A program made the translations under genes and the position numbers. Under the pieces are notes generated by a model that worked only from the letters and a program-made list of their open reading frames with translations, had not been told where the DNA came from and ran no database searches. This document shows positions 26,990 through 48,585 of a DNA stretch of 64,000 nucleotides, in pieces. How positions within the stretch are numbered: position 1 is the stretch's first letter; every line of letters begins with the position of its first letter. Origin of the DNA: Castellaniella defragrans (GTDB lineage: Bacteria > Pseudomonadota > Gammaproteobacteria > Burkholderiales > Burkholderiaceae_B); assembly GCF_014203015.1 (NCBI RefSeq), contig NZ_JACHIB010000011.1:1-64000 (forward strand). The letters are read 5' to 3'.

Positions 26990-26994
26990 AGAAC

Positions 26995-27757: not shown

Positions 27758-27771
27758 CCCGAGGAAAGAAC

Positions 27772-28170: not shown

Positions 28171-28180
28171 GGGGATCATC

Positions 28181-28804: not shown

Positions 28805-28811
28805 TCGATCC

Positions 28812-28898: not shown

Positions 28899-28984
28899 GT
28901 GGTCTTCCCCGGCTTTGCCGCCGGTTCTTCATGTCCGTCAGCCTTATCGGTGTAACGAGCCGAGGGTATTGAAAAGGAACATCC

Positions 28985-31148: not shown

Positions 31149-31227
31149 GAGGCCCGCGGGGCCCGCCTCCGCCGCATCGCCGTATCCGCTGCGTCCGCCG
31201 CAGCCGCCGTATTCAAGGAAGCCGTTC

Positions 31228-33417: not shown

Positions 33418-33460
33418 GCGCCCTCGTATCCATCTGCGATGCCTAGTGGTTTCCCTGATA

Positions 33461-33487
33461 TTGAGCGCAGGGGCCTACTGTGATAAT
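33461..33487 (+). promoter_or_regulatory. Possible promoter of the AraC-type regulator
   Basis: Extended -10 TG-T-GATAAT (33479-33487), with TTGAGC at 33461-33466 as a possible -35 at a short 15-bp spacing. The regulator ATG is 36 bp downstream. Confidence 0.4.
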
Positions 33488-33522
33488 GCCCAGGGTAGGA
33501 GAGATTCAAGTCTGGGAATTCG

Positions 33523-34374
33523 ATGTCTTTTGCCATACGCGCATTTCAAGGCCAGTTTGGACGGATTGCCTTGCTGGATATGAATGGCCCCCTTGTGATG
33601 CATGCGCATTCACAATGCCATGTGCTGCTCAAAGTCGGTGGCGAGGACACCTGCTTTTCAGTACGTAACGCGTCCGTTCCTCTGACGGATCGGACCATGG
33701 TGTTGATCAATTCCTGGGAACCGCACGCTTATACGCATCGTCCCGATGCGCCGCGTACTCTCATCCTTGGGCTCTACATCGAACCGCAATGGTTGGTGGG
33801 TATAGAAAAAGCCCTGATCACCAGCGGCAATCCGAGCTTCTTCCAGAGCTCTTGTGCGGAAGTCTCCGATACCGTGCGCGATATGGCCAATGCGTTGGCG
33901 GCCGAAATGCTGTGCGGTGCCGAATTGGCGGGACCAGAGCTGGAGGAACGCCTGTTCGGGCTCATGATTGCCGTGATCGAGTCGTTTGCGCGCTGGCGGA
34001 ATTTCGGCCTGTGGCAAGCGGACAATCTGGCGCGGGTGCAAGATCCGCGCATCCGGCGCACCATCACCTACATGCGGGCCAATGTCGGTGCCGATCTGGA
34101 CGTTAATGCCCTGGCGGCCAAAGCGTGTCTGTCCAGGGCCCATTTCTTCAAACTGTTCCAGCAGTCGACGAATGTGACGCCCCAGGTCTATGCCAACGTC
34201 TTGCGGCTCGAGACGGCGATACAGGATGTCGCTCATACGCAAGAAGCCCTGGCGGATCTGTCGGGACGCCTGGGGTTCAGTGCGCAAAGTCATTTCACCC
34301 GTTTCTTCCACCAGCACGTCGGTGCCACGCCTAGCCAGTATCGCAAGGTCGTGGACGTGATGGCCCGGTCTTAG
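33523..34374 (+). CDS. AraC-family transcriptional regulator
   Basis: 283 aa. N-terminal cupin-like sensor part (MHAHSQCHVLLKVGGEDTCF, NSWEPHAYTHRP), then the C-terminal double helix-turn-helix from about residue 180: DVNALAAKACLSRAHFFKLF and LADLSGRLGFSAQSHFTRFF, ending HVGATPSQYRK. It precedes, and reads in the same direction as, the molybdenum hydroxylase/CoA-ligase operon, so it is the likely activator of that pathway. GC content is visibly lower than in dsbD before it; it marks the left edge of the catabolic island. Confidence 0.88.
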   Translation: MSFAIRAFQGQFGRIALLDMNGPLVMHAHSQCHVLLKVGGEDTCFSVRNASVPLTDRTMVLINSWEPHAYTHRPDAPRTLILGLYIEPQWLVGIEKALITSGNPSFFQSSCAEVSDTVRDMANALAAEMLCGAELAGPELEERLFGLMIAVIESFARWRNFGLWQADNLARVQDPRIRRTITYMRANVGADLDVNALAAKACLSRAHFFKLFQQSTNVTPQVYANVLRLETAIQDVAHTQEALADLSGRLGFSAQSHFTRFFHQHVGATPSQYRKVVDVMARS

Positions 34375-34549
34375 ATTCCACCTCCCCTTCGCTTGCCGGT
34401 CCGGGGCGTTTCCGTCCCGGTGCTTGGGCCATGCACACTGCTTTTGTCGAATAAACAGACTCCATGGTAAATACGCGGACTGCTGGGTAAGGCTCTTTCG
34501 CGCTGCGCTCCCTACACTTTTCCAAACGAATCGCTTTGTGCGAAGAGAG

Positions 34550-37516
34550 ATGATTTTGGAAAACGTAGGCCAACCCTTGGAGCGTGTCGAAGACTTTCCC
34601 CTGCTGACGGGGAGAGCATGTTTCGTTGATGATGCGGGGGTCAAGCCGGGCACTCTGCAGGCCGCGATTCTTCGCTCGCCCCACGCGCACGCCGACATCG
34701 TGTCCATCGATGCGCAAGCGGCATTGCGCTTGCCCGGCGTGCGGGCGGTGCTGACGGGCGCGGATGTCAAGGCGTGGGCAACACCGTTTGCCGTGGGCGT
34801 CAAGCACCCCATGGAGCACTGGTGCATGGCGATTGAACGGGTGCGCTACGTGGGCGAACCGGTGGCGGTCGTCATCGCCGAGTCCCGCTATGTCGCGGAA
34901 GACGCCCTTGATCTGGTGCAGGTCGAGTATCGGGTGCTGGAGGCGGTCGTGGATCCGGAGCGGGCCTTGGCGGAGGATGCGCCGGTGCTGCATGCTGCGG
35001 TCGGCACCAATTCCGTCAATGATCGGCGGTTCAGCTATGGGGATCCGGATGCGGCGTTCGCGGCGGCGGATCGAACGGTCAGCATCAAAGTGCATTACCC
35101 GCGCAATTCCTGTACGCCGATCGAGTGTTTTGCCGTGGTGGCGGAATATCTGCCGGGTGAGGGCGGGTATGACGTCCTGTCGAATTTCCAGGGGCCGTTT
35201 GCTCTGCATCCAGTCATGGCCCGCGCCTTGAAAGTGCCGGGTGCGCGGCTACGCTTGCGCGCGTCGCATGACTCGGGGGGGAGCTTCGGCACGAAGCAGG
35301 CAGTCTCGACGTACGTGGTGCTGCTGTGTTTGGCCTCGCGCAAGGCGGGCGCTCCCGTCAAGTGGATCGAAGATCGATTGGAGCATCTGCAGGCGTCGGT
35401 GTCGGCGACCAATCGTGTGACGACGCTGGAGGCCGCCGTCAGGGACGATGGTGAAATCTTGGCGTTACGGTACGACCAAATCGATGATTGCGGCGCCTAC
35501 CTGCGTGCGCCGGAACCTGCCACGTTCTACCGTATGCATGGCATGCTGACCGGGGCCTACCGGGTCCGGCACCTGGCGGTGCGCAATCGGGTCGTCCTGA
35601 CGAACAAGACCCCCGCCGGGCTGGTGCGGGGTTTCGGTGGCCCACAGATGTATTTCGCGTTGGAGCGGCTGGTCCATCAGGTGGCGGTGGAACTGGCCCT
35701 TGACCCGTTGGAGGTCATTACACGCAATCTGGTCGAGGCGGACTCCTTCCCGTATCGGACCCCCGCGGGGGCGCTGTACGATTCCGGCAATTATCAGCGG
35801 GCGGTCGCGCAAGCCCGGGCAGAGGGCGGTTTGCAGGAGTTGCTGCTGCGGCGCGATGAAGCGCGCCGCGAGGGCCGCCTGTATGGCATCGGCTATTCGG
35901 CGATCGTCGAGCCGTCCATTTCCAATATGGGCTATATCACGACGGCGCTCACGCCAGCGGAGCGGGCCAAGGCGGGTCCCAAGAATGGCGCGATTGCCAG
36001 TGCGACGGTTTCGGTAGATGGCCTGGGCAGCGTCAGCGTGATGGTGGATTCGTTGCCGCAAGGACAGGGGCATCGCACGGTGACGGCGCAGGTCGTTGCC
36101 GATGCCTTGGGCTTGAGCCCGGGCGACATTACCGTCAACACCGAACACGACACGCAAAAAGACGCCTGGTCGATCGCTGCAGGCAACTATTCGAGTCGTT
36201 TTGCCGGCGCCGTGGCGGGTACCGCGCATCTGGCAGCAATGAAGATACGGGGCAAGCTCGCGTTGATCGCCGCCAGCATGCTGGACGTCCCCGCCGAGAG
36301 CATCGAGTTCGGGGGCAGGAAAATCCATTCGGCCGCCAAACCTGATCAGAAGCTGGCATTCCACCGTGTGGCCGGGATGACGCACTGGTCTCCGGGCACT
36401 CTGCCGCCGGGGATGGGGCCGGGCCTGCGCGAGACGGTGTTCTGGACGCCGCCGCACCTGGATGCGCCCGATGAGCGGGATGTGATCAACAGCTCGGCGG
36501 TCTATGGTTTCGTGTTCGACATCTGCGGCCTGGAAGTGGACCGGGTCACGGGGAAGATCCGCATCGACCGTTATGTCAGCCTGCATGACGCGGGCAGGAT
36601 ATTGAACCCCACCCTGGCCGACGGCCAATCGTACGGCGGTTTTGCGCAAGGCCTGGGCGCGGCGTTGATGGAAGAGTTTGTCTATGGCGATGACGGCAGC
36701 TTCCTGTCAGGCACGTTCGCGGACTATCTCGTCCCGACGTGCTGTGAGGTGCCTGACTTGCGGATCCTGCACATGGAAACGCGTTCCCCCTTCACCCCCC
36801 TGGGCAGCAAGGGCATCGGTGAGGGAAACAATATGAGCACGCCGGTGTGTATTGCCAACGCTGCGGCTGACGCGCTGGGCATGTCGGAAATCCGCCTGCC
36901 CCTGACGCCGTCCCGTGTGCATGGCTTGCTGCAGATGGAAGATCCGCCGCCGCGACCCGGCAGCGAGGCGGCAGGGGAGGCGGGGAAAACTGCCGGAGAC
37001 GGCCGTACGCTCCGAATGTCCGGCGCGGTCGATCTGGCCGGCACGCCGGAGCAGATTTACGCCGTGCTGCTGGATCCCGATGCTTTGGCGCGGGTCGTTC
37101 CGGGGTGTCATGCGCTGCAGGCGGTCGCCGAGAACCACTACCGCGCCGATGTGACTTTCGGGATCGGTTTGATCAAGGCGCGGTATGCGGCGCAGATTCA
37201 TCTGACGGATCTGGCGCCGCCTCACGCCTTGTCGCTGGGCGGCAGCGGCATCAGTCCCCTGGGTTCGGTGAGCGGCGATGGGCGTGTGCGCCTGGAGGCC
37301 GTGGACGCCGGCACTACGCGTCTGCATTACGACTATGGCGTATCCGTCAGCGGCAAAGTGGCGGCGGTCGGTAGCCGCATGCTGGAAGGCGCGGCCAAGC
37401 TGGTGCTGCGCCAGCTGTTCGAGCAACTGGGACGGCAGGTCGGTGGCCAGGCCGGCGCGCCCGCATCCCGGTCCTGGTGGCGGCGGCTGTGGGCCTTTTT
37501 GGGAGGGGCGGAATGA
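34550..37516 (+). CDS. hmfA: Molybdenum hydroxylase large subunit fused to a CoxG domain, probable furoyl-CoA dehydrogenase
   Basis: 988 aa from the ATG at 34550 (MILENVGQPLERVEDFPLL); a 42-residue upstream extension has no support. Xanthine dehydrogenase/CoxL-type molybdopterin subunit (about 1-800): GSFGTKQAVSTYV, the cofactor loop LVRGFGGPQMYFALERL and GSKGIGEGNNMSTP with the catalytic glutamate. A Pro/Gly-rich linker (about 800-820) leads to a CoxG/SRPBCC domain (about 822-970: VDLAGTPEQIYAVLLDPDA). Followed with ATGA overlaps by FAD and 2Fe-2S subunits. Together with the CoA ligase and hydratase-family genes this matches HmfABC, which hydroxylates 2-furoyl-CoA. Substrate assignment is inference. 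Confidence 0.75.
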   Translation: MILENVGQPLERVEDFPLLTGRACFVDDAGVKPGTLQAAILRSPHAHADIVSIDAQAALRLPGVRAVLTGADVKAWATPFAVGVKHPMEHWCMAIERVRYVGEPVAVVIAESRYVAEDALDLVQVEYRVLEAVVDPERALAEDAPVLHAAVGTNSVNDRRFSYGDPDAAFAAADRTVSIKVHYPRNSCTPIECFAVVAEYLPGEGGYDVLSNFQGPFALHPVMARALKVPGARLRLRASHDSGGSFGTKQAVSTYVVLLCLASRKAGAPVKWIEDRLEHLQASVSATNRVTTLEAAVRDDGEILALRYDQIDDCGAYLRAPEPATFYRMHGMLTGAYRVRHLAVRNRVVLTNKTPAGLVRGFGGPQMYFALERLVHQVAVELALDPLEVITRNLVEADSFPYRTPAGALYDSGNYQRAVAQARAEGGLQELLLRRDEARREGRLYGIGYSAIVEPSISNMGYITTALTPAERAKAGPKNGAIASATVSVDGLGSVSVMVDSLPQGQGHRTVTAQVVADALGLSPGDITVNTEHDTQKDAWSIAAGNYSSRFAGAVAGTAHLAAMKIRGKLALIAASMLDVPAESIEFGGRKIHSAAKPDQKLAFHRVAGMTHWSPGTLPPGMGPGLRETVFWTPPHLDAPDERDVINSSAVYGFVFDICGLEVDRVTGKIRIDRYVSLHDAGRILNPTLADGQSYGGFAQGLGAALMEEFVYGDDGSFLSGTFADYLVPTCCEVPDLRILHMETRSPFTPLGSKGIGEGNNMSTPVCIANAAADALGMSEIRLPLTPSRVHGLLQMEDPPPRPGSEAAGEAGKTAGDGRTLRMSGAVDLAGTPEQIYAVLLDPDALARVVPGCHALQAVAENHYRADVTFGIGLIKARYAAQIHLTDLAPPHALSLGGSGISPLGSVSGDGRVRLEAVDAGTTRLHYDYGVSVSGKVAAVGSRMLEGAAKLVLRQLFEQLGRQVGGQAGAPASRSWWRRLWAFLGGAE

Positions 37517-38331
37517 AGCCGGCTGGTTTTGATTATGTGCGGGCTGAAAGCCTGGCCGAGGCGCTCGACGTGCTGGGACGGCATGGCGGCGATGTGAAAG
37601 TGCTGGCGGGTGGACAGTCTTTGATGCCGATGCTGAACATCCGGTTGGTGCAGCCCAAGGTGCTGGTCGATATCTCGCGCTGCGCGGAGCTGGATTACAT
37701 CCGTGTGGAGCGCGATCAACTGGCGGTAGGCGCGGCCGTGACGCAATCGGCCTTGCAAGCCTGGCCTGACCTGGAAAAGCAGGTGCCTCTGCTGCCACAG
37801 GTTTTTCCCTGGATCTCGCATTTCCAGATCCGCAACCACGGTACGGTGTGCGGCTCCATCGCCCATGCCGACCCTAGCGCCGAATTGCCGCTTTGCCTGT
37901 CTGCCTTGCAGGGCGAGGTCGTGCTGCGCTCAAGCAAGGGGCGCCGTGTGCTGAAGGCCGATCAGTTCTTTCTAGGCATGTTGAGCACTGCGGTGCGAGT
38001 CGGTGAATTGGTCGAGGAAGTCCGCTTCCCGATTCACGCGGGTTCGGCGCGATACGCCTTCGAGGAAGTCTCGATGCGGCATGGCGATTTTGCCATCGTG
38101 GCCGTGGCCGCCAGGGTGGATGCGGCATCGATCCAGTTGACTGTGGGCGGGGTGGCCGACCGTGCCCAAAGCCGGCAATGGGCGCGTTTGTCCGCGCCGG
38201 ACCTGGAGCTGGCGTTGAATGATTTTGCCTGGGATCTGAGGGCCCAGTCGGATACCCAGGCCAGTGCCCATTATCGGCGGCATCTGGTGCGCCAATTGGG
38301 ACAGCGCGTGATCGAGAGGGCGCAATCATGA
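37513..38331 (+). CDS. hmfB: Molybdenum hydroxylase FAD-binding subunit, probable furoyl-CoA dehydrogenase
   Basis: 272 aa from the ATG at 37513, overlapping the large subunit stop by 4 bp; GGGAGGGGCGG precedes it. CoxM-type FAD domain: VKVLAGGQSLMPMLNIRL near residue 35 and IRNHGTVCGSIAHADPSAEL near residue 100, the two flavin-binding loops, then the CO-dehydrogenase flavoprotein C-terminal domain. Passes electrons from the iron-sulfur subunit to the acceptor. Stop overlaps the next gene by 4 bp. Confidence 0.78.
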   Translation: MKPAGFDYVRAESLAEALDVLGRHGGDVKVLAGGQSLMPMLNIRLVQPKVLVDISRCAELDYIRVERDQLAVGAAVTQSALQAWPDLEKQVPLLPQVFPWISHFQIRNHGTVCGSIAHADPSAELPLCLSALQGEVVLRSSKGRRVLKADQFFLGMLSTAVRVGELVEEVRFPIHAGSARYAFEEVSMRHGDFAIVAVAARVDAASIQLTVGGVADRAQSRQWARLSAPDLELALNDFAWDLRAQSDTQASAHYRRHLVRQLGQRVIERAQS

Positions 38332-38861
38332 AGCATTACGAACGCAGCGCTGCGGTGCTGGTGACGCTGGAACTCAATGGTGTGCCGCGCAGCGGCTATG
38401 CCGAGCCGCGTACGCTGTTGTCCGATTTTTTGCGGCATCAGTTGGGTGCGACGGGTACGCATGTCGGTTGCGAACATGGTGTGTGCGGGGCCTGCACGGT
38501 GCAACTGGATGGCGTGGCCGTGCGCTCCTGTCTGTTGCTGGCGGTCCAGGTCCAGGGGCGCCAGGTGGGGACTGTTGAAGGGTTGGTTGCAGCCGAGGCG
38601 GCGGACCCGCAGCCATTGACCGACCTGCAGCAGGCATTCAAGCGGCATCACGCCTTGCAGTGCGGGTATTGCACTGCCGGGATCCTGATGTCCTGCGAGC
38701 ATTTTCTGCGGCAGGTGCCGCAGCCGACGGAGCAGGAAGTCCGCGAAATGCTGTCGGGGCATCTATGCCGCTGCACCGGGTATCGCAACATCGTCGACGC
38801 CATTCTGGATGTGGTGGCACAGCGCACGAAAAATAGTGAGAAGGAAGATTCGCATGCTTGA
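38328..38861 (+). CDS. hmfC: Molybdenum hydroxylase 2Fe-2S subunit, probable furoyl-CoA dehydrogenase
   Basis: 177 aa. N-terminal plant-type ferredoxin domain with GCEHGVCGACTVQLDG and the fourth Cys in VRSCLLL; C-terminal four-helix [2Fe-2S] domain with QCGYCTAGIL and LCRCTGYRNI. All eight cluster ligands are present. Start overlaps the FAD subunit in ATGA; its stop lies 8 bp inside the following CoA ligase gene. Completes a three-subunit enzyme of the CoxLMS/HmfABC type. Confidence 0.8.
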   Translation: MKHYERSAAVLVTLELNGVPRSGYAEPRTLLSDFLRHQLGATGTHVGCEHGVCGACTVQLDGVAVRSCLLLAVQVQGRQVGTVEGLVAAEAADPQPLTDLQQAFKRHHALQCGYCTAGILMSCEHFLRQVPQPTEQEVREMLSGHLCRCTGYRNIVDAILDVVAQRTKNSEKEDSHA

Positions 38862-40386
38862 TCTGGGCCGCAGTTTTCTTGCCTGCGTTGAACGCAGTCC
38901 CGATGAAATCGCCCTCGTCGATGGAAATGTCCGCTTGAGTTATGCGGCGTGGTTCGAGCACGTGCGCAATGTCGCTGGTGGTTTGCATGCCTTGGGTCTG
39001 CGGCGGGGCGAGCATGTGGTGACCGTGTTGCAGAACCGGTGGGAAACGGCGACCTTGCATTGGGCATGCCAGTTCCTGGGCTTGATTGTGACACCCTTGA
39101 ATTGGCGCGCCAAGGCAGAGGACGTCGACTATTGCATCGAGGATGCACAGGGACGTGCGCTGGTGTTCCAGGACGTGTCGGCGCAGGCCGTCGCGGGGTC
39201 GGTCGCCGCTGCCAAGGTGCATCGGATCGTCGTTGGCGAGGCCTTGGAGAGTGGTGTGGGCGCGACGTTTGCATTCGGGGATTTGCTTTCTTCGGCGCCA
39301 GCGGCCTGCTTGCTGCATGCCGAGGCGGATGATTGGTCGCTGATGCTGTATACCTCGGGCACGACGGGCAGGCCCAAGGGGGTACCTCGGCGCCATCGTC
39401 ATGAACGGGCGGCAGCGCTGGCGCACGTGGCACAGAACCTGTATGCCCGGGGGGAACGCACCCTGGGAGTCATGCCGCTGTATCACACGATGGGGGTGCG
39501 CTCGTTGCTGTCGATGGCGTTGATCGACGGGCGCTTCGTGTGCGTGCCCAAGTTTGACTCGGCGGCGGTGCTGAAGGCCATCGAGAACGAGCGGATCTCG
39601 AGCCTGTACCTGGTGCCGACGCTGTATCACGATGTCGTGTCGCATCCCGATTTTGAGCGTGTGGATGTGTCGTCGGTGCGTCGGTTGGGGTTCGCGGGCG
39701 CGCCCATGAATGCGGATCTCATGCAGAAACTGGTGGCCTTGTTTCTGCCCGAGCTGTTCGTCAACCATTACGGGTCGTCTGAAGTCTATACCTTCTCGAT
39801 CGACCAGCATGCGGCAAAAAAACCGGGCAGTGCGGGCAAGAGCGGCATCAATCAGAGGATTCGGGTCGTCCGGCTCAACACCGGTGACCCCGAGGCTCTC
39901 GCCGCGCCTTACGAGGAAGGTGAAATCATCGCGGATCTGGCCGGAGATGAGGCTTTCGAGGGCTATTGGAACCGCCCCGATGCGGATGCCAGATCCTTGC
40001 GCGACGGCTGGTATTTCACGGGTGATATCGGTTATCTGGACGAGGAGGGCGACCTGTTCGTGGCGGGGCGGACCGATGACATGATCATCAGCGGCGGAGA
40101 AAACATTTCTCCGGTCGAAATCGAGAGTCTGCTGTCCCTGCATCCTGCTGTGGATGAGGTGGCAGTCGTTGGTTTGCCCGATCCGCGTTGGGGGCAGAAG
40201 GTCGTGGCCTTTATCAAGCGGGCGGGCAGTGTGGCCGAAGCAGATTTGGACGAGCATTGCCGCACGTCCGGCCTGGCTAATTTCAAGCGCCCGCGCGAGT
40301 ACGTGTTCGTGCGAGAAGTACCCCGTTCACCGGTGGGCAAGCTGTTGCGGCGCGAACTGGCGGCTCATCAATACGAGCAGGAATGA
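38854..40386 (+). CDS. hmfD: Acyl-CoA synthetase, probable 2-furoate--CoA ligase
   Basis: 510 aa from the ATG at 38854, chosen for AAGGAAG 7 nt upstream. AMP-forming ligase: YTSGTTGRPKGVPRRH near residue 170, NHYGSSEVYTF, GWYFTGDIGYLDEEGD, GRTDDMIISGGENISP and the catalytic lysine in RSPVGKLLRREL. Resembles aromatic-acid (chlorobenzoate-type) CoA ligases in size. It is encoded with the molybdenum hydroxylase, and the known furoate route starts with CoA activation followed by Mo-dependent hydroxylation, so 2-furoate is the inferred substrate. Another heteroaromatic or aromatic acid is possible. Confidence 0.72.
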   Translation: MLDLGRSFLACVERSPDEIALVDGNVRLSYAAWFEHVRNVAGGLHALGLRRGEHVVTVLQNRWETATLHWACQFLGLIVTPLNWRAKAEDVDYCIEDAQGRALVFQDVSAQAVAGSVAAAKVHRIVVGEALESGVGATFAFGDLLSSAPAACLLHAEADDWSLMLYTSGTTGRPKGVPRRHRHERAAALAHVAQNLYARGERTLGVMPLYHTMGVRSLLSMALIDGRFVCVPKFDSAAVLKAIENERISSLYLVPTLYHDVVSHPDFERVDVSSVRRLGFAGAPMNADLMQKLVALFLPELFVNHYGSSEVYTFSIDQHAAKKPGSAGKSGINQRIRVVRLNTGDPEALAAPYEEGEIIADLAGDEAFEGYWNRPDADARSLRDGWYFTGDIGYLDEEGDLFVAGRTDDMIISGGENISPVEIESLLSLHPAVDEVAVVGLPDPRWGQKVVAFIKRAGSVAEADLDEHCRTSGLANFKRPREYVFVREVPRSPVGKLLRRELAAHQYEQE

Positions 40387-40425
40387 TGGTTCCGCTTCAT
40401 AACAAGCACTGAATCAGGAGACAAC

Positions 40426-41607
40426 ATGCAGAAAATTAAATTCATCCAGTACGCGCTCGCGGCCGCATTGTCGGTCGGTTTTGCGGCCAGCCCAACCCAG
40501 GCCGCGGAGCCGATCAAGATCGGCGTGCTGACGCCGCTGTCCGGCACCTATGCCAGTCTCGGGCAGCAGGTCCGCTGGGGGGTGGAGCTGGCGACCCGGG
40601 AGATCAATGCGGCCGGGGGCATCATGGGCCGCCAGATCGTTCTGTTGTTTGAAGACGAGGAAGCCAATCCGGCGGTGGCCACGCCCAAGGCTGAAAAGTT
40701 GTTCCAGGTCGAGAAAGTCGATTTTCTGACAGGGACGGTCAACTCGGGGTCCACGCTGGCCGTGGGGCAGGTGGCCGAGCGCAATGACCGCCTGATCGCC
40801 ACGACGGTGTCTTTTTCCGATGCCATCACGGGCGACAAGTGTTCGCCCAACGTTTTTCGCGTCAATGCCAAGGCCGGCCAGCAGTCGGTGGCGTTGGCGG
40901 CCTGGATGAGCACCGCAGTGCCCGAGGCCAAGGTGTTCTATCTGGGGCCGGATTACGAAATGGGCCGCAGCACGGTGCAGGCTTTCAAGACGGCCGCCGA
41001 GGCCAAGGGCGCCAAGACGATGGGCGAAGTGTTTGCGCCCCTGGGCAACAAAGACTATTCGCCATTCTTCGGCCAGATCCGTGCCGCGCACCCTAATGTC
41101 ATGTACACCTCGGTGGCGGGCAACGACACGGTGCGCCTGTTCAACCAGTTGAGCGAGTACGGCCTGAGCAGGAACCTGATGCTCGTCGGCGCTTCGGGCA
41201 CCGTGACCTCGCAGAACCTGGGGGCCATGGGCAAGGCGGCCGAGGGCTTTACGACGGGTGTGGGCTATTCCGTTGACCTGGACACGCCGGCCAACAAGAC
41301 CTTCGTCAAGACGTTCCAGGATGCTCATCAGGAGCTGCCGGACCTCTATGGCGCGGACTCCTACGGCGTCGTCTATTTCTACAAGGCGGCAGTCGAGAAA
41401 GCGCAGAGCACGGAGACGGCCAAGGTGCGCGCCGCGATGGAGGGCTTGGAGTGGATGACCCCTCAGGGCATGAAAGAGATGCGCGCGGGCGACCACCAAG
41501 CGGTTCAGGACATGTATGTGACGCGTCTGCAGGACGGCAAGTTCAGTGTCTTGAGCAAGGTCGATGGCAAGGATGCGATCGGGCCTGATACCTGCACGCG
41601 CTTTTAA
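40426..41607 (+). CDS. Liv-type ABC transporter substrate-binding protein
   Basis: 393 aa. Signal peptide MQKIKFIQYALAAALS to about PTQAAEP, then the periplasmic binding protein type I fold: IKIGVLTPLSGTYASLGQQ, GGIMGRQIVLLFEDEE and DLYGADSYGVVYFYKAA. AGGAGA precedes the ATG. Lies between the CoA ligase and Liv-type permease genes, so the ligand is probably the pathway's acid rather than a branched-chain amino acid (inference). Followed by a strong hairpin that could raise its level relative to the permeases. Confidence 0.85.
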   Translation: MQKIKFIQYALAAALSVGFAASPTQAAEPIKIGVLTPLSGTYASLGQQVRWGVELATREINAAGGIMGRQIVLLFEDEEANPAVATPKAEKLFQVEKVDFLTGTVNSGSTLAVGQVAERNDRLIATTVSFSDAITGDKCSPNVFRVNAKAGQQSVALAAWMSTAVPEAKVFYLGPDYEMGRSTVQAFKTAAEAKGAKTMGEVFAPLGNKDYSPFFGQIRAAHPNVMYTSVAGNDTVRLFNQLSEYGLSRNLMLVGASGTVTSQNLGAMGKAAEGFTTGVGYSVDLDTPANKTFVKTFQDAHQELPDLYGADSYGVVYFYKAAVEKAQSTETAKVRAAMEGLEWMTPQGMKEMRAGDHQAVQDMYVTRLQDGKFSVLSKVDGKDAIGPDTCTRF

Positions 41608-41624
41608 GGCCATAACCATCAGCC

Positions 41625-41658
41625 GTGAGACGGCCGGTGAACTGGCCGGCCGTCTCGC
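41625..41658 (+). promoter_or_regulatory. Stable intercistronic hairpin after the binding-protein gene
   Basis: Perfect 11-bp stem GAGACGGCCGG (41627-41637) with CCGGCCGTCTC (41646-41656), 8-nt loop, extendable by a G-T and a G-C pair. No T-tract, so it is unlikely to be a full terminator. Such structures protect the upstream mRNA and allow more binding protein than permease. Confidence 0.65.
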
Positions 41659-41682
41659 GGGACAGGACGAGGAGTGAAGCCC

Positions 41683-42576
41683 ATGGGCGGGTTTATCGAT
41701 ACTGTGCAGTTCGTCTTCGCGCCACAGATCATCAATGGTTTGTCGATCGGAGTGGCTGTCGTACTGATGGCACTGGGACTGACCATCATTTTTGGTTTGC
41801 TGGACGTCATCAACATGGCCCATGGCGAGTTTTATGCGCTGGGTGCTTATCTGGGCGTGTCGATGCTGGCCATGGGCGTCGATTTCTGGGTGGCCCTGAT
41901 GCTGGTGCCGTTGCTGATGGCGCCGTTGGGCTACTTGACCGAACGCATGTTGATTCAGCGAGTGTTCCATTCGCGAGATCGACATATGTTGACGCTGCTG
42001 CTGACGTTTGGCATGGCCATCATTCTTGAGGACGTCTACAAGCTGATCTATGGGCCTCAGCCTTTTTCGGTGGAAACCCCGATCAGCGGCGGGAGTGAAA
42101 TCCTGGGCGTGTTCTTTCCCAACTATCGTCTGTTCATGATGGGCCTGGGCATCGTCATCATCGGCGCAGTCTGGCTGGTCGTCTACCGGACTCGTCTGGG
42201 CGCCATGGTGCGCGCGGCGGCGTTCGACAAGCACATGACGGCTTCGCTGGGCGTGTCTGTGTCCCGTGTCTATGCCGGCACCTTCGCCTTTGGCGTGGCG
42301 CTGGCGGGGTTGGCCGGCGTATTGCTGGCGCCCATTTATTCCGTGTTCCCCACCATGGGCAAGGACTTCATCCTCATGGCCTTCAGTGTCGTGATCGTAG
42401 GCGGCTTGGGTAGCGTCAAGGGCGCCCTGATCGCCGGCCTGCTGTTGACCCAGATTCAAGCCATTTCCAGTTTGTATATTTCACCGTCCTGGTCCGATCC
42501 GCTGGTCTTCGGGATCATGGTACTGGTGCTGATGGTCCGCCCTCAGGGCCTGTTCGGGAGGTTGGGCCATGCCTGA
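41683..42576 (+). CDS. Liv-type ABC transporter permease (LivH-like)
   Basis: 297 aa from the ATG at 41683, with AGGAG 8 nt upstream; a GTG 9 bp earlier would overlap that site. Multi-helix permease: INGLSIGVAVVLMALGLTII, LDVINMAHGEFYALGAYLG and the cytoplasmic coupling region RAAAFDKHMTASLGVSVSRV, then GGLGSVKGALIAGLLL. Overlaps the next permease gene by 8 bp. Confidence 0.87.
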   Translation: MGGFIDTVQFVFAPQIINGLSIGVAVVLMALGLTIIFGLLDVINMAHGEFYALGAYLGVSMLAMGVDFWVALMLVPLLMAPLGYLTERMLIQRVFHSRDRHMLTLLLTFGMAIILEDVYKLIYGPQPFSVETPISGGSEILGVFFPNYRLFMMGLGIVIIGAVWLVVYRTRLGAMVRAAAFDKHMTASLGVSVSRVYAGTFAFGVALAGLAGVLLAPIYSVFPTMGKDFILMAFSVVIVGGLGSVKGALIAGLLLTQIQAISSLYISPSWSDPLVFGIMVLVLMVRPQGLFGRLGHA

Positions 42577-43609
42577 TGGAATCATATTCCCGGCGCCCTG
42601 GCGCATCGTCAAGGCGCGGACGCCCGAGGACCGGACGCGCGATATCCTGCGCAAGTTCGCCTATCTGTTCATCGCGTTGGCGCTGGCGTTCGCGGCCTTC
42701 GCCCATGTTGCCCAGGATGTGTTCTTTTTCCGTCTGGCGACGGAGGCCCTGCTGTTCGGGGGGCTGGCCATGGGGGTCGATCTGCTGCTGGGCTATGCCG
42801 GGCTGCTGTCCCTGGGTCATGCGCTGTTCTTCGGCCTGGGCGCCTACGTTTCCGCCTTGGTCCTCAAGGACGTGGCGCCGTCGTTCTGGCTGGCGATGTT
42901 CGTCACGCTGTGCGTGGCGACAGGGGCTGGCGCGGTGGCGGGCATTATCGCGATCCGGGCGCGCGGTGTCTATTTCGCTCTGATCACCTTCGGCATGGCC
43001 GAGGTCGTGGCCAAGGCAGTGTTCAATACGCCCGAGCTGGGAGGGTCCGACGGTATCATCGGCGTCCCCATCATTGATGTGAATCTGCTGTTCTTCACGG
43101 TGCGCAGTAATGATCCCGCCGGTTTCTTCCTGCTGACGCTGGCGGTGATCATGGGGTTTTATTTCGCACTGGAGGCATTGCTGCGCACGCCCTTCGGCCG
43201 CTTGATTGTCGCCGTCAAGGCGAACGAGGATCGCGTCCCGTTTCTGGGGTTCAGCGCACAGCGCCATAAGTTTCTGGTGTTCGTCATGGCTTCCAATGTC
43301 GCGGCCTTGTCGGGGGCGCTGTATCCCATGCTGCGGGGATTCGTCTCGCCCGAGCTGATGTTTTTCCACACCTCTGGGAATGCGGTCATCACCGTGATTC
43401 TGGGCGGGCTGGGCACGCTGATCGGACCGTTGTACGGTAGCGTGATCCTGGCCGCGCTCAAATCGGTGGTGGGCTCATTCACGGAGCATCATCTCATCAT
43501 CATCGGCGCACTGTTCATGGTGGCGGTCATCTTTTTCCCTAAAGGCCTGGTTGGATTCCTGAGGGCCAGGATCGAAGCCCGCGCGGTGTCCACCGGAGAA
43601 GCATCGTGA
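42569..43609 (+). CDS. Liv-type ABC transporter permease (LivM-like)
   Basis: 346 aa. A short cytoplasmic N-terminus, then about ten helices: LLLGYAGLLSLGHALFFGLG, the coupling segment VAVKANEDRVPFLGFSAQRH and ILGGLGTLIGPLYGSVIL. Pairs with the LivH-like protein as the transmembrane core. Its stop overlaps the GTG start of the following ATPase gene. Confidence 0.87.
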   Translation: MPDGIIFPAPWRIVKARTPEDRTRDILRKFAYLFIALALAFAAFAHVAQDVFFFRLATEALLFGGLAMGVDLLLGYAGLLSLGHALFFGLGAYVSALVLKDVAPSFWLAMFVTLCVATGAGAVAGIIAIRARGVYFALITFGMAEVVAKAVFNTPELGGSDGIIGVPIIDVNLLFFTVRSNDPAGFFLLTLAVIMGFYFALEALLRTPFGRLIVAVKANEDRVPFLGFSAQRHKFLVFVMASNVAALSGALYPMLRGFVSPELMFFHTSGNAVITVILGGLGTLIGPLYGSVILAALKSVVGSFTEHHLIIIGALFMVAVIFFPKGLVGFLRARIEARAVSTGEAS

Positions 43610-44388
43610 GCGCGCCGGCCGAATCCATGCGCATCGCGCGTGACGTTGTCCTGGACGTCCAGGAACTGTCCATCGCCTTTGGGGCATTGAAGGCCGTGGA
43701 CCAGGTGAGCTTCCAGGCGCGGCAAGGAGAGATCACTTCGCTGATCGGGCCGAACGGCGCGGGCAAGAGCACGCTGTTCAACCTCGTCAGCGGGGCGCTG
43801 CGGCCCATGCGGGGCACGGTTCGGTTCGGTGACAAAGAAGTGACGGGCATGCGGCCCAATCAGCTTCTGCGCGAGGGGCTGGCACGTTCGTTCCAGATTA
43901 CGCGGCTGTTTTTCGACCTGTCGGTCATCGAGAACCTGCGTCTGGCGGCGCACGTACTCGAACCCGTGCGGCGGGCCTTCATGCCTTTGTCGTGCAGCAG
44001 GCAGGCTGCACAGCGTGTCGACGAGCTGGTGCACCAATTTTCCTTGGAGAAAAAGCTCAACGAGCTCGCGGGCTACTTGTCGCATGGTGAGCAGCGCCGG
44101 CTTGAGATCGCGCTGGCGCTGGCCTCGCGGCCTCGGATGCTTCTGCTGGATGAACCGACACAGGGCATGTCGCATACCGATACGGAGGAGGCGGCCGCGC
44201 TGATCAAATCCCTGGCCGGGGACGTGTCGGTGCTACTCGTCGAGCACGACGTGGGCATGGTGATGAACCTGTCCGACCATGTCGTGGTCATGGCGCAGGG
44301 TAAAAAGCTGGCCGAGGGCATGCCGCAGGACGTACGGGCCAATCCGGCGGTGCAGGTGGCCTATTTTGGGGAACGCCGAGATGCTTGA
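43606..44388 (+). CDS. Liv-type ABC transporter ATPase (LivG-like)
   Basis: 260 aa, GTG start in a GTGA overlap with the permease stop. Walker A GPNGAGKST, signature SHGEQRRLEIALA (the first residues are diverged from LSGGQ), Walker B MLLLDEPTQGMS and the C-terminal BCA-type ending VQVAYFGER. Drives uptake with the LivF-like subunit. Confidence 0.88.
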   Translation: MSAPAESMRIARDVVLDVQELSIAFGALKAVDQVSFQARQGEITSLIGPNGAGKSTLFNLVSGALRPMRGTVRFGDKEVTGMRPNQLLREGLARSFQITRLFFDLSVIENLRLAAHVLEPVRRAFMPLSCSRQAAQRVDELVHQFSLEKKLNELAGYLSHGEQRRLEIALALASRPRMLLLDEPTQGMSHTDTEEAAALIKSLAGDVSVLLVEHDVGMVMNLSDHVVVMAQGKKLAEGMPQDVRANPAVQVAYFGERRDA

Positions 44389-45088
44389 AATGGAAGACGT
44401 GCATGCGTATTACGGCCTCAGTCACGTGCTGCAGGGGGTTTCGCTGACCGTGGGCGCGGGAGACGTCGTGTTGTTGTGCGGCCGTAATGGGGTGGGCAAA
44501 ACGACCACCATCAAGACCATCGCGGGCTGGGTGAAGCCGCGCCAGGGCAGCATCCGCTTCAACGGCGTGGTGATGAACGGACTGGAAGCGGATCGTATCT
44601 GCCGGTTGGGGGTTGGTCTGGTCCCCGAGGACCGGCGCATCTTTCCAGGGTTGACGGTAGAGGAAAATCTGAAGCTCGGTCTGCTGCAAGCGCCTGGGCG
44701 GTCGGCGAAAGCCGCCAGAATGGCCATTGAGCGCACCTACGCGCAGTTTCCACGCCTGAAGGAGCGCCGCGCGCAAATGGGTACCGCCCTGTCTGGGGGC
44801 GAGCAGCAGATGCTGGCCATTGCCCGCGTCCTGGTCGGCGAGCCCCGTTTGCTGCTGATCGATGAGCCCACCGAAGGGCTGGCGCCGATCATCGTCGATG
44901 AAATTTTCGCCATCATCCAGCAGCTTCGGGAAACGGGTGTGCCCATCCTGCTCGTCGAACAGAACGTGCATCGGGCCTTGGAGTACGCCTCGAGCTTTTA
45001 TGTGTTGGAGCGAGGACAGATCATTCTGGCGGGCGAGGGCGCATCGGATACCGATCGGCAGGCGCTCAACGAAGCCATTGCGGTTTAG
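44381..45088 (+). CDS. Liv-type ABC transporter ATPase (LivF-like)
   Basis: 235 aa from the ATG at 44381 (MLEMEDVHAYYG), overlapping the LivG-like gene by 8 bp; upstream in-frame codons belong to that gene. Walker A GRNGVGKTT, ALSGGEQQMLAIARVL signature and LLLIDEPTEGLAPII Walker B. Completes a full Liv-type importer (one binding protein, two permeases, two ATPases). Confidence 0.88.
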   Translation: MLEMEDVHAYYGLSHVLQGVSLTVGAGDVVLLCGRNGVGKTTTIKTIAGWVKPRQGSIRFNGVVMNGLEADRICRLGVGLVPEDRRIFPGLTVEENLKLGLLQAPGRSAKAARMAIERTYAQFPRLKERRAQMGTALSGGEQQMLAIARVLVGEPRLLLIDEPTEGLAPIIVDEIFAIIQQLRETGVPILLVEQNVHRALEYASSFYVLERGQIILAGEGASDTDRQALNEAIAV

Positions 45089-45120
45089 CACCAATCTTTT
45101 GATTCACCATGGGGAAAAGC

Positions 45121-45927
45121 ATGACAGCATTGAAACATTCCGCACAGATCCTGTTGGGGCAACTGGACGGTTTTTCGGTCGAGATCGACGAGGCACGCGA
45201 GCGTGCCGACATCATCCTGCATCGTCCGCCCTTCAACGTCATTTCCATGCCGCAGCGCGATCAACTGAGGCTGGTGTTCGAGTCCCTGGACGAGAATCCC
45301 ACTGTCCGTGTCATCGTGCTGCGCGCACAGGGCGAGCACTTCTCCAGCGGGGGCGATATCAAGGGCTTCCTGGAGGCCTCGCCGGAGCATGTATCCAAGC
45401 TGGCCTGGAACATTGCGGCGCCGGCGCGCTGTTCCAAGCCGGTGGTCGCCGTCAATCGCGGCTATTGCTTTGGTGTGGGTTTCGAGATTTCCCTGGCCTG
45501 CGATTTCCGGCTGGTTTCCGAGACGACTCAGTATGCGTTGCCGGAGCAGAAGCTGGGCCAGATTCCAGGTTCGGGTGGTTCCGCGCGCCTGCAGAAACTG
45601 ATCGGGATCACCCGCACCAAGGATGTCGTCATGCGCTCACGGCGCATTTCCGGCCAGCAGGCATACGATTGGGGCATCGCCACGGCGTGTGTCGTGGACG
45701 CCGAATTGGAAAGCGCAGCGGATGCGCTGGTGGATGAACTGCGCAAGTTTTCTCCACTTGCCCAGCGCACGGCGAAGAAGCTGCTCAACGATACCGAGGA
45801 TGCATCGCTGACGAGTGCCATCGAATTGGAAGGGCATTGCTACAGCCGGCTGCGCTCCTCCGATGATTTCCGTGAAGGGGTGGAGGCTTTCCATGCCAAA
45901 CGCGCCGCTCACTTCGTGGGGTCCTGA
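45121..45927 (+). CDS. hmfE: Enoyl-CoA hydratase-family enzyme, probable 2-oxoglutaroyl-CoA hydrolase
   Basis: 268 aa from the ATG at 45121, preferred over an ATG at 45109 because GGGGA fits its spacing. Crotonase fold: LHRPPFNVISMPQRDQLR, oxyanion-hole segment HFSSGGDIKGFLEASPEHV, VNRGYCFGVGFEISLACDFR and PEQKLGQIPGSGGSARLQ. In the known furoate pathway a protein of this family releases 2-oxoglutarate from its CoA thioester after ring hydroxylation. Its place in the same operon as the ligase and dehydrogenase supports that reading; a hydratase for another acyl-CoA cannot be excluded. Confidence 0.7.
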   Translation: MTALKHSAQILLGQLDGFSVEIDEARERADIILHRPPFNVISMPQRDQLRLVFESLDENPTVRVIVLRAQGEHFSSGGDIKGFLEASPEHVSKLAWNIAAPARCSKPVVAVNRGYCFGVGFEISLACDFRLVSETTQYALPEQKLGQIPGSGGSARLQKLIGITRTKDVVMRSRRISGQQAYDWGIATACVVDAELESAADALVDELRKFSPLAQRTAKKLLNDTEDASLTSAIELEGHCYSRLRSSDDFREGVEAFHAKRAAHFVGS

Positions 45928-45992
45928 GCGCGGCATTTGGGTGGCGGCCCTGCTGGGCCGTCCTCTTCGGGCAGCGGGCTGGAGGCGTCATC

Positions 45993-47045
45993 GTGGACAA
46001 TATCGACTTCATCGTTCTGAAGACCTTGGCGGACTGGCGTGCGCTGGGCCGGCCCGCCTTGCTGGTCACGGTAGCTCGAACCTGGGGGTCTTCGCCGCGC
46101 CCAGTCGGGTCGATCATGGCGCTGTGTGCCGATGGTTCAGTCATCGGTTCTGTTTCAGGTGGGTGTATCGAGGACGATCTGATTGCACGGTATCGCGGTG
46201 ATGCCGGCGGTCCGATCGACACTTGGCATGCACGCTCCGGCGTCGAAGTTCTGAAGTACGGCATTCAGGCCGACGAGGCGCACCGGTTCGGGCTGCCGTG
46301 CGGCGGCACGCTGGAGCTGGTGCTTGAATACAATCCCGACCCGATGCTCCTGGATCAATTGATCCGCCGCCTGAGGGAAGGCAGATTGGTGCGAAGGACG
46401 CTGAGCCTGGATGATGGCCGCGTCACGCTGGTCGACAGTGTGGCATCTGACATCCTGGCGATGGATGCGCGGACATTGTCGACGACGTTTGGTCCAAGCT
46501 ACCGGATGCTGCTGATCGGTGCGGGACAGCTGGCCGAATACCTGGCCACCATGGCGCTGTTTTCAGGCTTTACTGTGACGGTTTGCGATCCGCGGATTGA
46601 ATATACGCGCAGCTGGGCCGTTGCGGGTGCCGTGCTGAGCCATGATATGCCCGACGATGCCGTCATCGCCCTGCGGCCCGATCGGCGGACCTGCATCGTC
46701 GCCCTGAGTCACGACCCAAAACTTGACGACATGGCGTTGATGGAGGCGCTGAATTCTGAGGCATTCTATGTGGGCGCCATCGGCTCTCGTCGAAATCAGG
46801 ATGCCCGGCATGCGCGGATGATCGAGTATTTAGACATGACCAAGGCTGCCATGAGCCGCTTGCGCGGTCCGGTTGGGTTGTTTATTGGCAGCAAGACACC
46901 CGCGGAGATCGCTGTCAGCATCATGGCGGAAATTATTGCGGTCAAGAATGGTGTCCCGCTGACCAAGGACCTTGATGTTCGTGCGGCTAAGAATCGAATT
47001 CAGTTGCAACAGGACGAGAATATGTGCGGGCTGGTCCACTCCTGA
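45993..47045 (+). CDS. XdhC/CoxI-family molybdenum enzyme maturation factor
   Basis: 350 aa, GTG start with GGAGG 7 nt upstream. N-terminal XdhC domain (ALLVTVARTWGSSPRPVGS, GSVSGGCIEDDL) and a C-terminal Rossmann domain (RMLLIGAGQLAEYLATMA, YVGAIGSRRN). Members bind molybdenum cofactor and insert the sulfurated form into xanthine dehydrogenase-type enzymes. Downstream of the furoate genes, so it very likely matures the hydroxylase encoded at 34550-38861. Confidence 0.87.
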   Translation: MDNIDFIVLKTLADWRALGRPALLVTVARTWGSSPRPVGSIMALCADGSVIGSVSGGCIEDDLIARYRGDAGGPIDTWHARSGVEVLKYGIQADEAHRFGLPCGGTLELVLEYNPDPMLLDQLIRRLREGRLVRRTLSLDDGRVTLVDSVASDILAMDARTLSTTFGPSYRMLLIGAGQLAEYLATMALFSGFTVTVCDPRIEYTRSWAVAGAVLSHDMPDDAVIALRPDRRTCIVALSHDPKLDDMALMEALNSEAFYVGAIGSRRNQDARHARMIEYLDMTKAAMSRLRGPVGLFIGSKTPAEIAVSIMAEIIAVKNGVPLTKDLDVRAAKNRIQLQQDENMCGLVHS

Positions 47046-47079
47046 TGGTCGCCGCCTGTTGCCGGATGGCTGGCTGAGA

Positions 47080-47721
47080 TTACGTCAAGCTGCGGATGTG
47101 TGTCGTCGGCGGTAGATCCGATGGCGTGTCGATGTCGCGTAGGATGCCTGGGTCGGTCACGATGACCTCTCGCACGGGGTATTGCTGCAATAGTGCACGA
47201 GCTCCTCGGTCTCCCTCCAGGCTCAGCAGCCGCTGCCGGTGCCACGCACTGAAAGCGACCGGGTTGCCGCGATGTCCGTTCCAGACCGGCGCCGCGATGT
47301 CGGCTCCTTGAGTCAGGGCATCGACCAGGGCCTGAAGGGTGGATTGCTGGACAAACGGCATGTCGGCCAAGGCAATGAGGCAGCCGGCATGCTGGGGCGT
47401 CGCCAGGATTCCGCAGACCAGCGAGGCTGCCATCCCCCGGCCTGCGTCGGGGCAGCTCAGGACGCGACAACCTGCGGATGCCAGGAGCCGGCTCAGCGCG
47501 CTCGTGTGGTCACGGACGATGGCGATGACATCGGGCAGCACGGCCAGCAGAGCAGACGCGCTGGCGGCGGCAACGGGCGTGCCATCTGCGAGAGGCTGCA
47601 TCAGCTTGTTCAACTGGCCGGTGGGATCGAAGCGTGTCCCCCGGCCCGCCGCTAGCAGGATTCCAGCGATTTGACGTGGCGAGTCACCTGCCTGGATCGG
47701 CGCCGGGCCGTGCTGAGCCAT
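47080..47721 (-). CDS. MobA/MocA-like molybdenum cofactor nucleotidyltransferase
   Basis: 213 aa. Nucleotidyltransferase N-terminus AGILLAAGRGTRFDPTGQLNKL, then VSCPDAG-type segment (LSCPDAGRGMAASLVCGI) and LIALADMPFVQQSTLQALV, ending with the metal-site region GHRGNPVAF. MocA proteins convert molybdopterin to the cytosine dinucleotide used by xanthine dehydrogenase-family enzymes. Convergent with the XdhC-family gene, 34 bp apart. This pairing suggests the dedicated cofactor route for the island's hydroxylase. Confidence 0.82.
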   Translation of the reverse strand: MAQHGPAPIQAGDSPRQIAGILLAAGRGTRFDPTGQLNKLMQPLADGTPVAAASASALLAVLPDVIAIVRDHTSALSRLLASAGCRVLSCPDAGRGMAASLVCGILATPQHAGCLIALADMPFVQQSTLQALVDALTQGADIAAPVWNGHRGNPVAFSAWHRQRLLSLEGDRGARALLQQYPVREVIVTDPGILRDIDTPSDLPPTTHIRSLT

Positions 47722-47769
47722 ATTCCGGGGTACTTCTTTGTCTGGAGTGATGGGGCGGCGTGGGCACCG

Positions 47770-48585
47770 TCAGGGTTCGGGCTGGCCGCCGGTGGGCTCG
47801 TCCGTGCGGCTCAGTTCCCGGGCCTCGTCGGCCTCGTCCGCGGCCGGCTTGCGCTTTTCGATGGCGGCGCCGGCCAGGATGCCGATCTCGTACAGCAGGC
47901 ACAGCGGCGCGGCCAGCAGGATCTGGCTGAGGACGTCGGGCGGCGTCACCACGGCGGCGACGACGAAGGCGCCGACGACCACGTAGCCGCGGACCTCGCG
48001 CAGTTTCTTCACCGTGACCATGCCGGTCTTGACCAGCAGGACGACCGCGATCGGGACCTCGAAGGTGACGCCGAAGGCGATGAACATGGTCAGCACGAAA
48101 TTGACGTAGGCCTCGATGTCCGGCGCCGGAGTGATGGACTGCGGCGCGAAGTGGGCGATGAAGCTGAAGACCGTGTGGAAGACCACGAAATAGCAGAACG
48201 CCATGCCCAGCAGGAACAGCAGGGTGCTGGAGATGATCAGGGGCAGCGCCAGGCGCTGTTCGTGGCGGTACAGGCCCGGGGCGACGAAGGCCCAGGCCTG
48301 GTACAGGACCACCGGCAGGGCCAGCACGAAGGACGCCAGCAGGGTGACCTTGATCGGCACCATGAAGGGCGTGATGACGCCGGTGGCGATCATGCGCGTG
48401 CCCTGGGGCAGCGAGGCCAGCATGGGCTGGGCCAGGATGTCGTAGATCAGCGACGGGCCCGGATAGATGAACAGCACCACGAAAATGGCCAGCACGGCCA
48501 TCACGGCCCGCAGCAGGCGCGTGCGCAGTTCGATCAGGTGCGAGATGAAGGTGTCCTGGGACGAGGCGTCGGAAGCGTCTGTCAT
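47770..48585 (-). CDS. tatC: Sec-independent protein translocase TatC
   Basis: 271 aa. Six-helix membrane protein: FISHLIELRTRLLRAV at the N-terminus (the twin-arginine receptor face), PFMVPIKVTLLASFVLALP and YVVVGAFVVAAVVTPPDVLSQ. TatC with TatB recognises folded cofactor-loaded substrates carrying an RR signal. The C-terminal acidic tail of about 25 residues is variable. Last gene of hinT-like - tatA - tatB - tatC. Confidence 0.97.
   Translation of the reverse strand: MTDASDASSQDTFISHLIELRTRLLRAVMAVLAIFVVLFIYPGPSLIYDILAQPMLASLPQGTRMIATGVITPFMVPIKVTLLASFVLALPVVLYQAWAFVAPGLYRHEQRLALPLIISSTLLFLLGMAFCYFVVFHTVFSFIAHFAPQSITPAPDIEAYVNFVLTMFIAFGVTFEVPIAVVLLVKTGMVTVKKLREVRGYVVVGAFVVAAVVTPPDVLSQILLAAPLCLLYEIGILAGAAIEKRKPAADEADEARELSRTDEPTGGQPEP

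Follow-up and report, generated by a model that had tools for sequence, protein, structure and literature searches.

A predicted hmf-type block for 2-furoate degradation in Castellaniella defragrans, with a candidate AraC operator and a CoxG domain fused to HmfA

The closest described systems for 2-furoate degradation are the hmfABCDE clusters of Cupriavidus basilensis HMF14 and Pseudomonas, whose genes A to E encode a furoyl-CoA dehydrogenase, a furoyl-CoA synthetase and a 2-oxoglutaryl-CoA hydrolase (excerpts of PMC6678421 and PMC12064950). According to these excerpts, lactone hydrolysis has no assigned gene and HmfE is proposed as a thioesterase (PMC6678421), and the Pseudomonas cluster includes a putative hydrolase, hyd (PMC12064950). 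Furoate is the meeting point of furfural and hydroxymethylfurfural (HMF) breakdown, and such clusters bear on the detoxification of plant-biomass hydrolysates and on furan bioplastics. Here we describe a gene island in a 64,000-nucleotide stretch of Castellaniella defragrans DNA (contig NZ_JACHIB010000011.1, positions 1 to 64,000, forward strand; hereafter the window). Judged from its sequence, the island is very probably an hmf-type block for growth on 2-furoate by the known chemistry, and probably was acquired horizontally. We propose that furfural would also be degraded if the host oxidises it.

Gene content and assignment to the furoate pathway

Positions 33523-47721 of the window carry long open reading frames (ORFs) for an AraC regulator, a molybdenum hydroxylase, a CoA ligase, a five-gene ABC importer placed between hmfD and hmfE, a crotonase, an XdhC-type factor and a MocA-like protein, and all thirteen island proteins matched the corresponding Pfam families (Table 1). 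All genes named in the original prediction were thus found in the range it gave, and both neighbours, dsbD and tatC, were identified as it had proposed. The CoxG domain of the large subunit, the operator-like repeat and the evidence on the insertion site, all described below, go beyond that prediction. It had also held that the enzyme classes match HmfABCDE. The comparison with five plasmid clusters of Cupriavidus, Paraburkholderia and Burkholderia (L023, L024, L025, L026 and L030) agreed with this, giving identities of 64.7-67.7% for HmfA (over the full length), 58.3-62.2% for HmfB, 66.9-70.8% for HmfC, 62.9-66.6% for HmfD and 78.1-81.2% for HmfE. The C. basilensis and P. pseudoalcaligenes clusters are 64, 59, 77, 61 and 80% identical for A to E (excerpt of PMC6678421), so the window lies about as far from the plasmid clusters as two studied clusters lie from each other.

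A tblastn search of plasmids with the large subunit matched 244 records, 27 of them at 60-80% identity, and ten of the 60 listed were examined. The top full-length relatives of the large subunit (64-78%), like those of the ligase on the five named plasmids (63-67%), sit in hmfABCDE clusters. UbiD and UbiX family genes accompany four of the five comparison clusters, and three of these also have a GMC oxidoreductase gene. The five hmf genes adjoin UbiD and UbiX genes on the plasmids of Cupriavidus oxalaticus, Paraburkholderia aromaticivorans and Burkholderia aenigmatica, the last two with a GMC oxidoreductase and a major facilitator superfamily (MFS) gene as well. The same neighbours were placed by tblastn in P. 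phymatum, a record without annotation. C. pinatubonensis has the five hmf genes, an MFS gene and XdhC, with no UbiD within the stretch examined. A similar cluster occurs in Geobacillus at 39-56%; an Agrobacterium record has HmfABC with HmfD and HmfE not beside them; and the one C. basilensis record examined holds a more distant hydroxylase at 34%, not the HMF14 cluster. We take the UbiD, UbiX and GMC genes to be HmfF, HmfG and HmfH, following common naming and excerpts of PMC6678421 and PMC12064950.

A profile of 14 large subunits was run in one scan of the genome collection and the best 80 loci were kept; the frequencies that follow refer to these 80 only. Among the 58 with enough flank (2.5 kb upstream, 9 kb downstream), HmfB and HmfC were present in 58, HmfD in 54, HmfE in 53, AraC in 39 and UbiD at at least 50% identity in 19; L052 lacks HmfE only, and L077, L079, L100 and L103 lack both HmfD and HmfE. 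In a tree of 86 rows, made by a quick method with SH-aLRT support only and with L103 left out, the window HmfA pairs with a Candidimonas genome bin (L033; support 99) inside a 26-row clade (98), which is betaproteobacterial by name or source except for L101, labelled gammaproteobacterial. The window HmfA therefore falls in the same clade as the hmf clusters. The clade with other ligases and hydrolases lies outside it and comprises eight rows (support 90), six of them with other ligases; its exact place is unsure because of long branches.

Could the same sequence of CoA ligation, ring hydroxylation and hydrolysis allow the island to degrade, instead or in addition, a related ring acid such as thiophene-2-carboxylate, a substituted furoate or pyrrole-2-carboxylate? 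The substrate is deduced only from neighbours and homology, and members of the other large-subunit clade adjoin other acyl-CoA ligases, 29-56% identical to the Agrobacterium one (L032 itself, L069, L077, L079, L080 and L100), some together with alpha/beta hydrolases, so that this enzyme type occurs in other settings too. Moreover, the sole UbiD of the window genome is only 29% identical to the furan-cluster UbiD, for which reason an HMF/2,5-furandicarboxylic acid (FDCA) branch (hmfFGH) in this genome was also rejected. However, the window groups with clusters that often carry UbiD and UbiX, its HmfD and HmfE are 63-81% identical to those of the named plasmids, and we consider a different ring acid quite unlikely.

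Agrobacterium L032 (10001-16548), L077, L079, L100 and L103 encode HmfABC-like hydroxylases at 53-58%, with other acyl-CoA ligases adjoining and no HmfD or HmfE; alpha/beta hydrolases adjoin those of L032, L100 and L103. These loci perhaps serve a pathway for another ring acid. Two genomes, G086 and G019, each have two separate HmfA copies, one of the G086 copies being more distant (1198 vs 1735 bits).

A second alternative takes the hydroxylase for an aerobic CO dehydrogenase or a 4-hydroxybenzoyl-CoA reductase, since models of both are among the NCBIfam matches and a CoxG domain is present. However, the large subunit reached only 426 bits against a cut-off of 991 for the large-subunit equivalog of the former and 374 against 995 for the alpha-subunit equivalog of the latter, and both identities were rejected. 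The adjacent HmfD and HmfE are not known to be parts of either system, which also counts against this alternative; we regard it as extremely improbable. Glyceraldehyde dehydrogenase alpha, which the large subunit matched best in NCBIfam, was rejected likewise (472 against a cut-off of 790). The original prediction was to be given up if the ligase and the hydroxylase proved more similar to enzymes that act on another acid. This was not seen: the best relatives stand in hmfABCDE clusters and the NCBIfam models remain below cut-off.

Insertion site, operator and importer

A match to tatC was found in 10 of 10 genomes of the genus (G000 included), and dsbD adjoins tatC in six of the nine other same-genus genomes (G001, G003, G004, G005, G008 and G009), with 34-140 bp between the tblastn ends. 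The gap is about 1.5 kb in G006, and dsbD was not found within the stretch examined in G002 and G007. Compared with G003, the DNA match ends at 33405 and restarts at 47828, 58 bases inside tatC. Two of the nine relatives, G005 and G006, have hmfA; in G005 it is located elsewhere than at the dsbD-tatC site, with the importer divergent from it. The gene order AraC-ABCD-importer-E recurs in another genus (G025) at 68-85% per protein. The empty site in relatives and this shared gene order support the view that the genes arrived together as one block. Mobility genes were not identified in the island, by an analysis that included no search aimed at them. Direct repeats of 9-12 bases at the two junctions were not found in the 300-base stretches compared, and there were a few short inverted matches (9-11 bases). 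The GC content is 0.61-0.65 in the island, 0.67-0.73 in the right flank and 0.70-0.76 on the dsbD side; we rejected it as proof of transfer because the region 20000-29000 also has 0.63-0.68.

Upstream of hmfA lies a tandem repeat that we predict to be an AraC operator. With up to three mismatches allowed, the stricter pattern GACT-N4-GGTAA occurs once in the window and never in 100 shuffles, and the rest of the window genome has a single further match, with three mismatches. Two of 89 loci had too little upstream DNA; among the 87 scored, a repeat before hmfA at a score of at least 13/16 was found in 41 of 52 loci with AraC, in none of 14 with LysR only and in two of 21 with neither; of 3617 pieces taken at random from these loci, 10 reached that score. 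The regulator itself is 42-56% identical to AraC proteins next to other hmf clusters, where it was the better-scoring query, and 72% identical to that of G025.

In 200 genomes of the family, of which 34 bear HmfA (E 1e-200 or better), a search allowing one mismatch gave 29 sites. Nineteen, each in a different one of the 34 HmfA-bearing genomes, lie within 500 bp before hmfA on the same strand, although three of these (G000, G025 and G214, which is L034 by coordinates) belonged to the sequences in which the repeat was discovered. The other ten lie elsewhere, two of them on the contig of G086 that carries HmfA and four among the 166 genomes lacking HmfA; the reversed control pattern gave 20 sites in the same genomes. 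A scan of 91 loci gave 48 sites at 14/16 or better, 36 of them before hmfA and one more (L161) also preceding it. Of the remaining 11, three lie before hmfE in L036 and L047, at distances of 115, 157 and 727 bp; the others stand before UbiD and a large permease-like ORF (L055), before the genes of tripartite-type binding proteins of Bradyrhizobium (five loci: L061, L070, L071, L096 and L112) and before the importer's binding protein gene in G005. The closeness of these sites to furan genes is partly by construction because the loci were chosen around HmfA, and the whole-genome search is the fairer test.

The five Bradyrhizobium binding protein genes are candidates for furan-acid uptake. In L055, two operator-like sites stand back to back (20889-20923) between the UbiD gene and the permease-like ORF, which suggests that the regulon includes yet another type of importer. 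In eight of nine rows compared from the window's group, a TA-NNN-T hexamer starts 22 bp past the second repeat, a spacing that would be expected for an activator beside the -35 region. Over all 45 operators the hexamer is found at 22 bp in 12 and at 23 bp in five, and the promoter is therefore less clear outside this group. Our literature search found no report of a furoate AraC operator in titles and abstract starts. The predicted operator offers a testable furoate sensor, and the ABC binding protein is a candidate furoate-binding protein.

We infer that furoate is the ligand of the ABC importer. Its binding protein matched at E 1e-100 or better in 13 of the 200 family genomes, and all 13 are among the 34 with HmfA, a co-occurrence with a hypergeometric probability of 1e-11 if relatedness is ignored; the binding protein and HmfA searches scored only the best first-look candidates, up to nine and up to four per genome. 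The importer (binding protein at least 55% identical) occurs in nine of the best 80 loci and the MFS gene, at 50% or more, in 21 of 58, never together. A BenE-type family, for which Pfam was run on one member, is present in 19 of 89 loci, and these overlap with neither the nine importer loci nor the 21 MFS loci. The three types look like interchangeable importers.

The catabolic genes could be as described and the importer serve another solute, for instance another furan acid, an amino acid or urea. Its parts match LIV- or urea-type NCBIfam models, all below cut-off, and in L046 it adjoins a tripartite-type binding protein. Furthermore, P. umsongensis GO16 grew on furoate comparably to the wild type when either of two cluster transporters was deleted, one being implicated in the uptake of 5-hydroxymethyl-2-furancarboxylic acid (HMFCA) and the other in that of FDCA (excerpt of PMC12064950). 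This dispensability led us to raise our estimate for another solute slightly, to a level that we would still call unlikely. The restriction of the binding protein to HmfA-bearing genomes speaks against it, as does the lack of any locus combining the importer with an MFS or BenE-type gene among those compared; in G005, moreover, the importer has its own repeat (14/16) about 200 bp before the binding protein gene. We found no report of an ABC or branched-chain importer for furoate in titles and abstract starts, and ABC importers of hmf clusters may have been described before, in the survey by Donoso et al. 2021.

The fused CoxG domain and the ring-opening step

HmfA has a CoxG domain (PF06240; 62.4 bits, cut-off 22.2) fused C-terminally to its molybdenum domains. 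A 50-row HmfA alignment shows conserved positions in the CoxG part, and most of the C-terminal tails compared end in a short basic and hydrophobic stretch, like SWW-RLL--LG in the window's group; this stretch was not seen in several rows, e.g. L090 (truncated), L098 and L106. CoxG is described as anchoring CO dehydrogenase to the membrane and is proposed to be its quinone-linked partner (excerpts of PMC13240472 and PMC11962113), and for an archaeal glycerol-3-phosphate dehydrogenase the excerpt of PMC11962113 argues for anchoring only, which makes anchoring likelier than a direct quinone role. The fused domain and tail of HmfA suggest anchoring at the membrane.

We tentatively propose a combined model, in which furoyl-CoA dehydrogenase would be membrane-anchored and pass electrons straight to the respiratory quinone through its built-in CoxG, and the lower furoate pathway of many proteobacteria would form one AraC regulon, in which the AraC protein acts at a conserved GAC-N5-GGTAA tandem operator and through it switches on the importer of each lineage as well. 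We lowered this model from even odds to somewhat less than even, because anchoring is the likelier role. The fusion nevertheless offers a testable answer to the fate of the electrons from furoyl-CoA oxidation. A literature search on CoxG with furoyl-CoA or HmfA found no report of the fusion in titles and abstract starts; PMC8941161 mentions both terms. Geobacillus kaustophilus pHTA426 encodes CoxG separately, in the gene that immediately follows hmfA (L027, 12433-12891). The product shares 151 of 152 residues with PDB 2PCS, an entry titled only 'Conserved protein', and this gives the structure a context as the stand-alone CoxG of a furoate-type cluster.

The claim that the island carries everything needed was too strong, since no gene is assigned to the enzyme that opens the lactone ring. 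The island has no counterpart of hyd. Two genes elsewhere in the window genome are 41% and 33% identical to the alpha/beta hydrolase beside the L049 cluster. A lactone hydrolase conserved with the core was rejected, that hydrolase family being present in only five of 89 loci (ORFs of at least 150 aa). In HmfE, the glutamates of the GVGFE and LPEQ stretches align with those of the crotonase-fold dehydratase 5zai, and we take them to be the catalytic pair of the fold. Since both are kept, HmfE might perform either hydrolytic step.

Several points weigh against the furoate assignment and the regulon. No biochemically tested HmfA-E sequence turned up in the collections searched, which did not include an accession-by-accession look-up, and no alpha/beta hydrolase is present in the island, leaving the lactone-opening step without a gene there. 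UbiD is not unique to the hmf clade, for L069 of the other clade has one at 57%. The AraC regulator and the ABC importer are one of several choices of regulator and transporter and therefore do not define the substrate, and the importer may not be needed for furoate itself, given the dispensable transporters of P. umsongensis. As for the operator, the repeat was spotted by eye in the very loci later counted, 11 of the 52 AraC loci stay under 13/16, including five of the nine with the same importer (L046, L050, L053, L054 and L088), and the operator is not universal, as 15 of the 34 HmfA-bearing family genomes have no site before hmfA.

Weighing both sides, we favour furoate as the substrate. 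Furoate, or a product of it, would act via the AraC-type activator, which would bind the two tandem sites just upstream of the -10 box and turn on hmfABCD, the ABC genes and hmfE. Furoate would enter through the importer, HmfD would form 2-furoyl-CoA, and HmfABC, whose molybdenum cofactor XdhC and the MocA-like protein presumably help to prepare, would hydroxylate carbon 5. The product would tautomerise to a lactone and then be opened, HmfE freeing 2-oxoglutarate. The CoxG domain and tail of HmfA would probably keep the enzyme at the membrane and may hand electrons to quinone.

The coordinates are collected in Table 1. The dsbD ORF encodes 840 aa, with the DsbD N-terminal domain starting only at residue 180 and no Pfam match before it; the upstream start may be wrong. 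No tRNAs or Rfam elements were found in the window.

Table 1. Features of the island and its borders (window positions; the starts of hmfA at 34550, hmfB at 37513, hmfD at 38854 and the second ATPase at 44381 were inferred from translations)
Feature	Position	Strand	Evidence or remark
dsbD, left neighbour	30895-33417	+	
Inserted block, dsbD end to within the last 58 bases of tatC	33406..47827	.	No DNA match to G003
AraC-family regulator, 283 aa, predicted furoate-responsive activator	33523..34374	+	HTH_18 1.6e-20
Predicted operator, two direct repeats GAC-N5-GGTAA	34458..34490	+	20 bp start to start
TACACT, -10-like box	34513-34518		Starts 22 bp past second repeat
hmfA, 988 aa, large (Mo) subunit of predicted 2-furoyl-CoA dehydrogenase; carries a fused CoxG domain and a C-terminal tail	34550..37516	+	MoCoBD_1/2, hammerhead, COXG; alignments; tree
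C-terminal CoxG/SRPBCC domain of HmfA and tail ending SWWRRLWAFLGGAE	37013..37516	+	COXG 4.9e-17; PDB 2pcs 8.4e-30, 8uds (CoxG) 4.3e-6
hmfB, FAD subunit	37513..38331	+	FAD_binding_5 8.7e-45; ATG start inferred within ORF from 37477
hmfC, [2Fe-2S] subunit	38328..38861	+	Fer2_2 8.2e-29; also Fer2
hmfD, predicted 2-furoyl-CoA synthetase	38854..40386	+	AMP-binding 2.5e-67; ATG start inferred within ORF from 38809
ABC importer, periplasmic binding protein	40426..41607	+	Peripla_BP_6 1e-86
ABC importer, permease 1 (LivH/UrtB type)	41674..42576	+	BPD_transp_2
ABC importer, permease 2 (LivM/UrtC type)	42569..43609	+	BPD_transp_2
ABC importer, ATPase 1 (LivG/UrtD type)	43606..44388	+	ABC_tran
ABC importer, ATPase 2 (LivF/UrtE type)	44381..45088	+	ABC_tran; ATG start inferred within ORF from 44279
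hmfE, crotonase-family 2-oxoglutaryl-CoA hydrolase candidate	45109..45927	+	ECH_1 1.7e-46
XdhC-type maturation factor (role of PsfD)	45993..47045	+	XdhC_CoxI; XdhC_C 5e-35
MocA/MobA-like nucleotidyltransferase, predicted molybdenum-cofactor cytidylyltransferase	47080..47721	-	NTP_transf_3 7.4e-35; top NCBIfam match MocA/YgfJ, 99 bits, below cut-off of 186
tatC, right neighbour	47770-48585	-	tatB next

Comparison with known systems

The island shares with the Pseudomonas hmf clusters an AraC regulator and an XdhC-type protein, there called PsfD. It differs from the C. basilensis and Pseudomonas clusters in the five-gene ABC importer between hmfD and hmfE, where the excerpts of PMC6678421 and PMC12064950 describe other transporters, namely BenE, HmfI and HmfT, as well as in having a MocA-like gene and no hmfF, hmfG or hmfH alongside. 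The clusters of Dinoroseobacter shibae pDSHI01 and Azospirillum oryzae are closer in transport, as they combine AraC, hmfABCDE and five ABC genes, with binding proteins 68 and 74% identical to that of the window; unlike in the window, hmfE precedes the importer in both, and D. shibae also has UbiD and UbiX genes. The C-terminal domain of HmfA and the CoxG of aerobic CO dehydrogenase (8uds) are members of one sequence family, the HmfA domain differing in its fusion to the catalytic subunit. The pathway is thus a known one, and it is the regulatory site, the importer linkage and the enzyme architecture that look less familiar.

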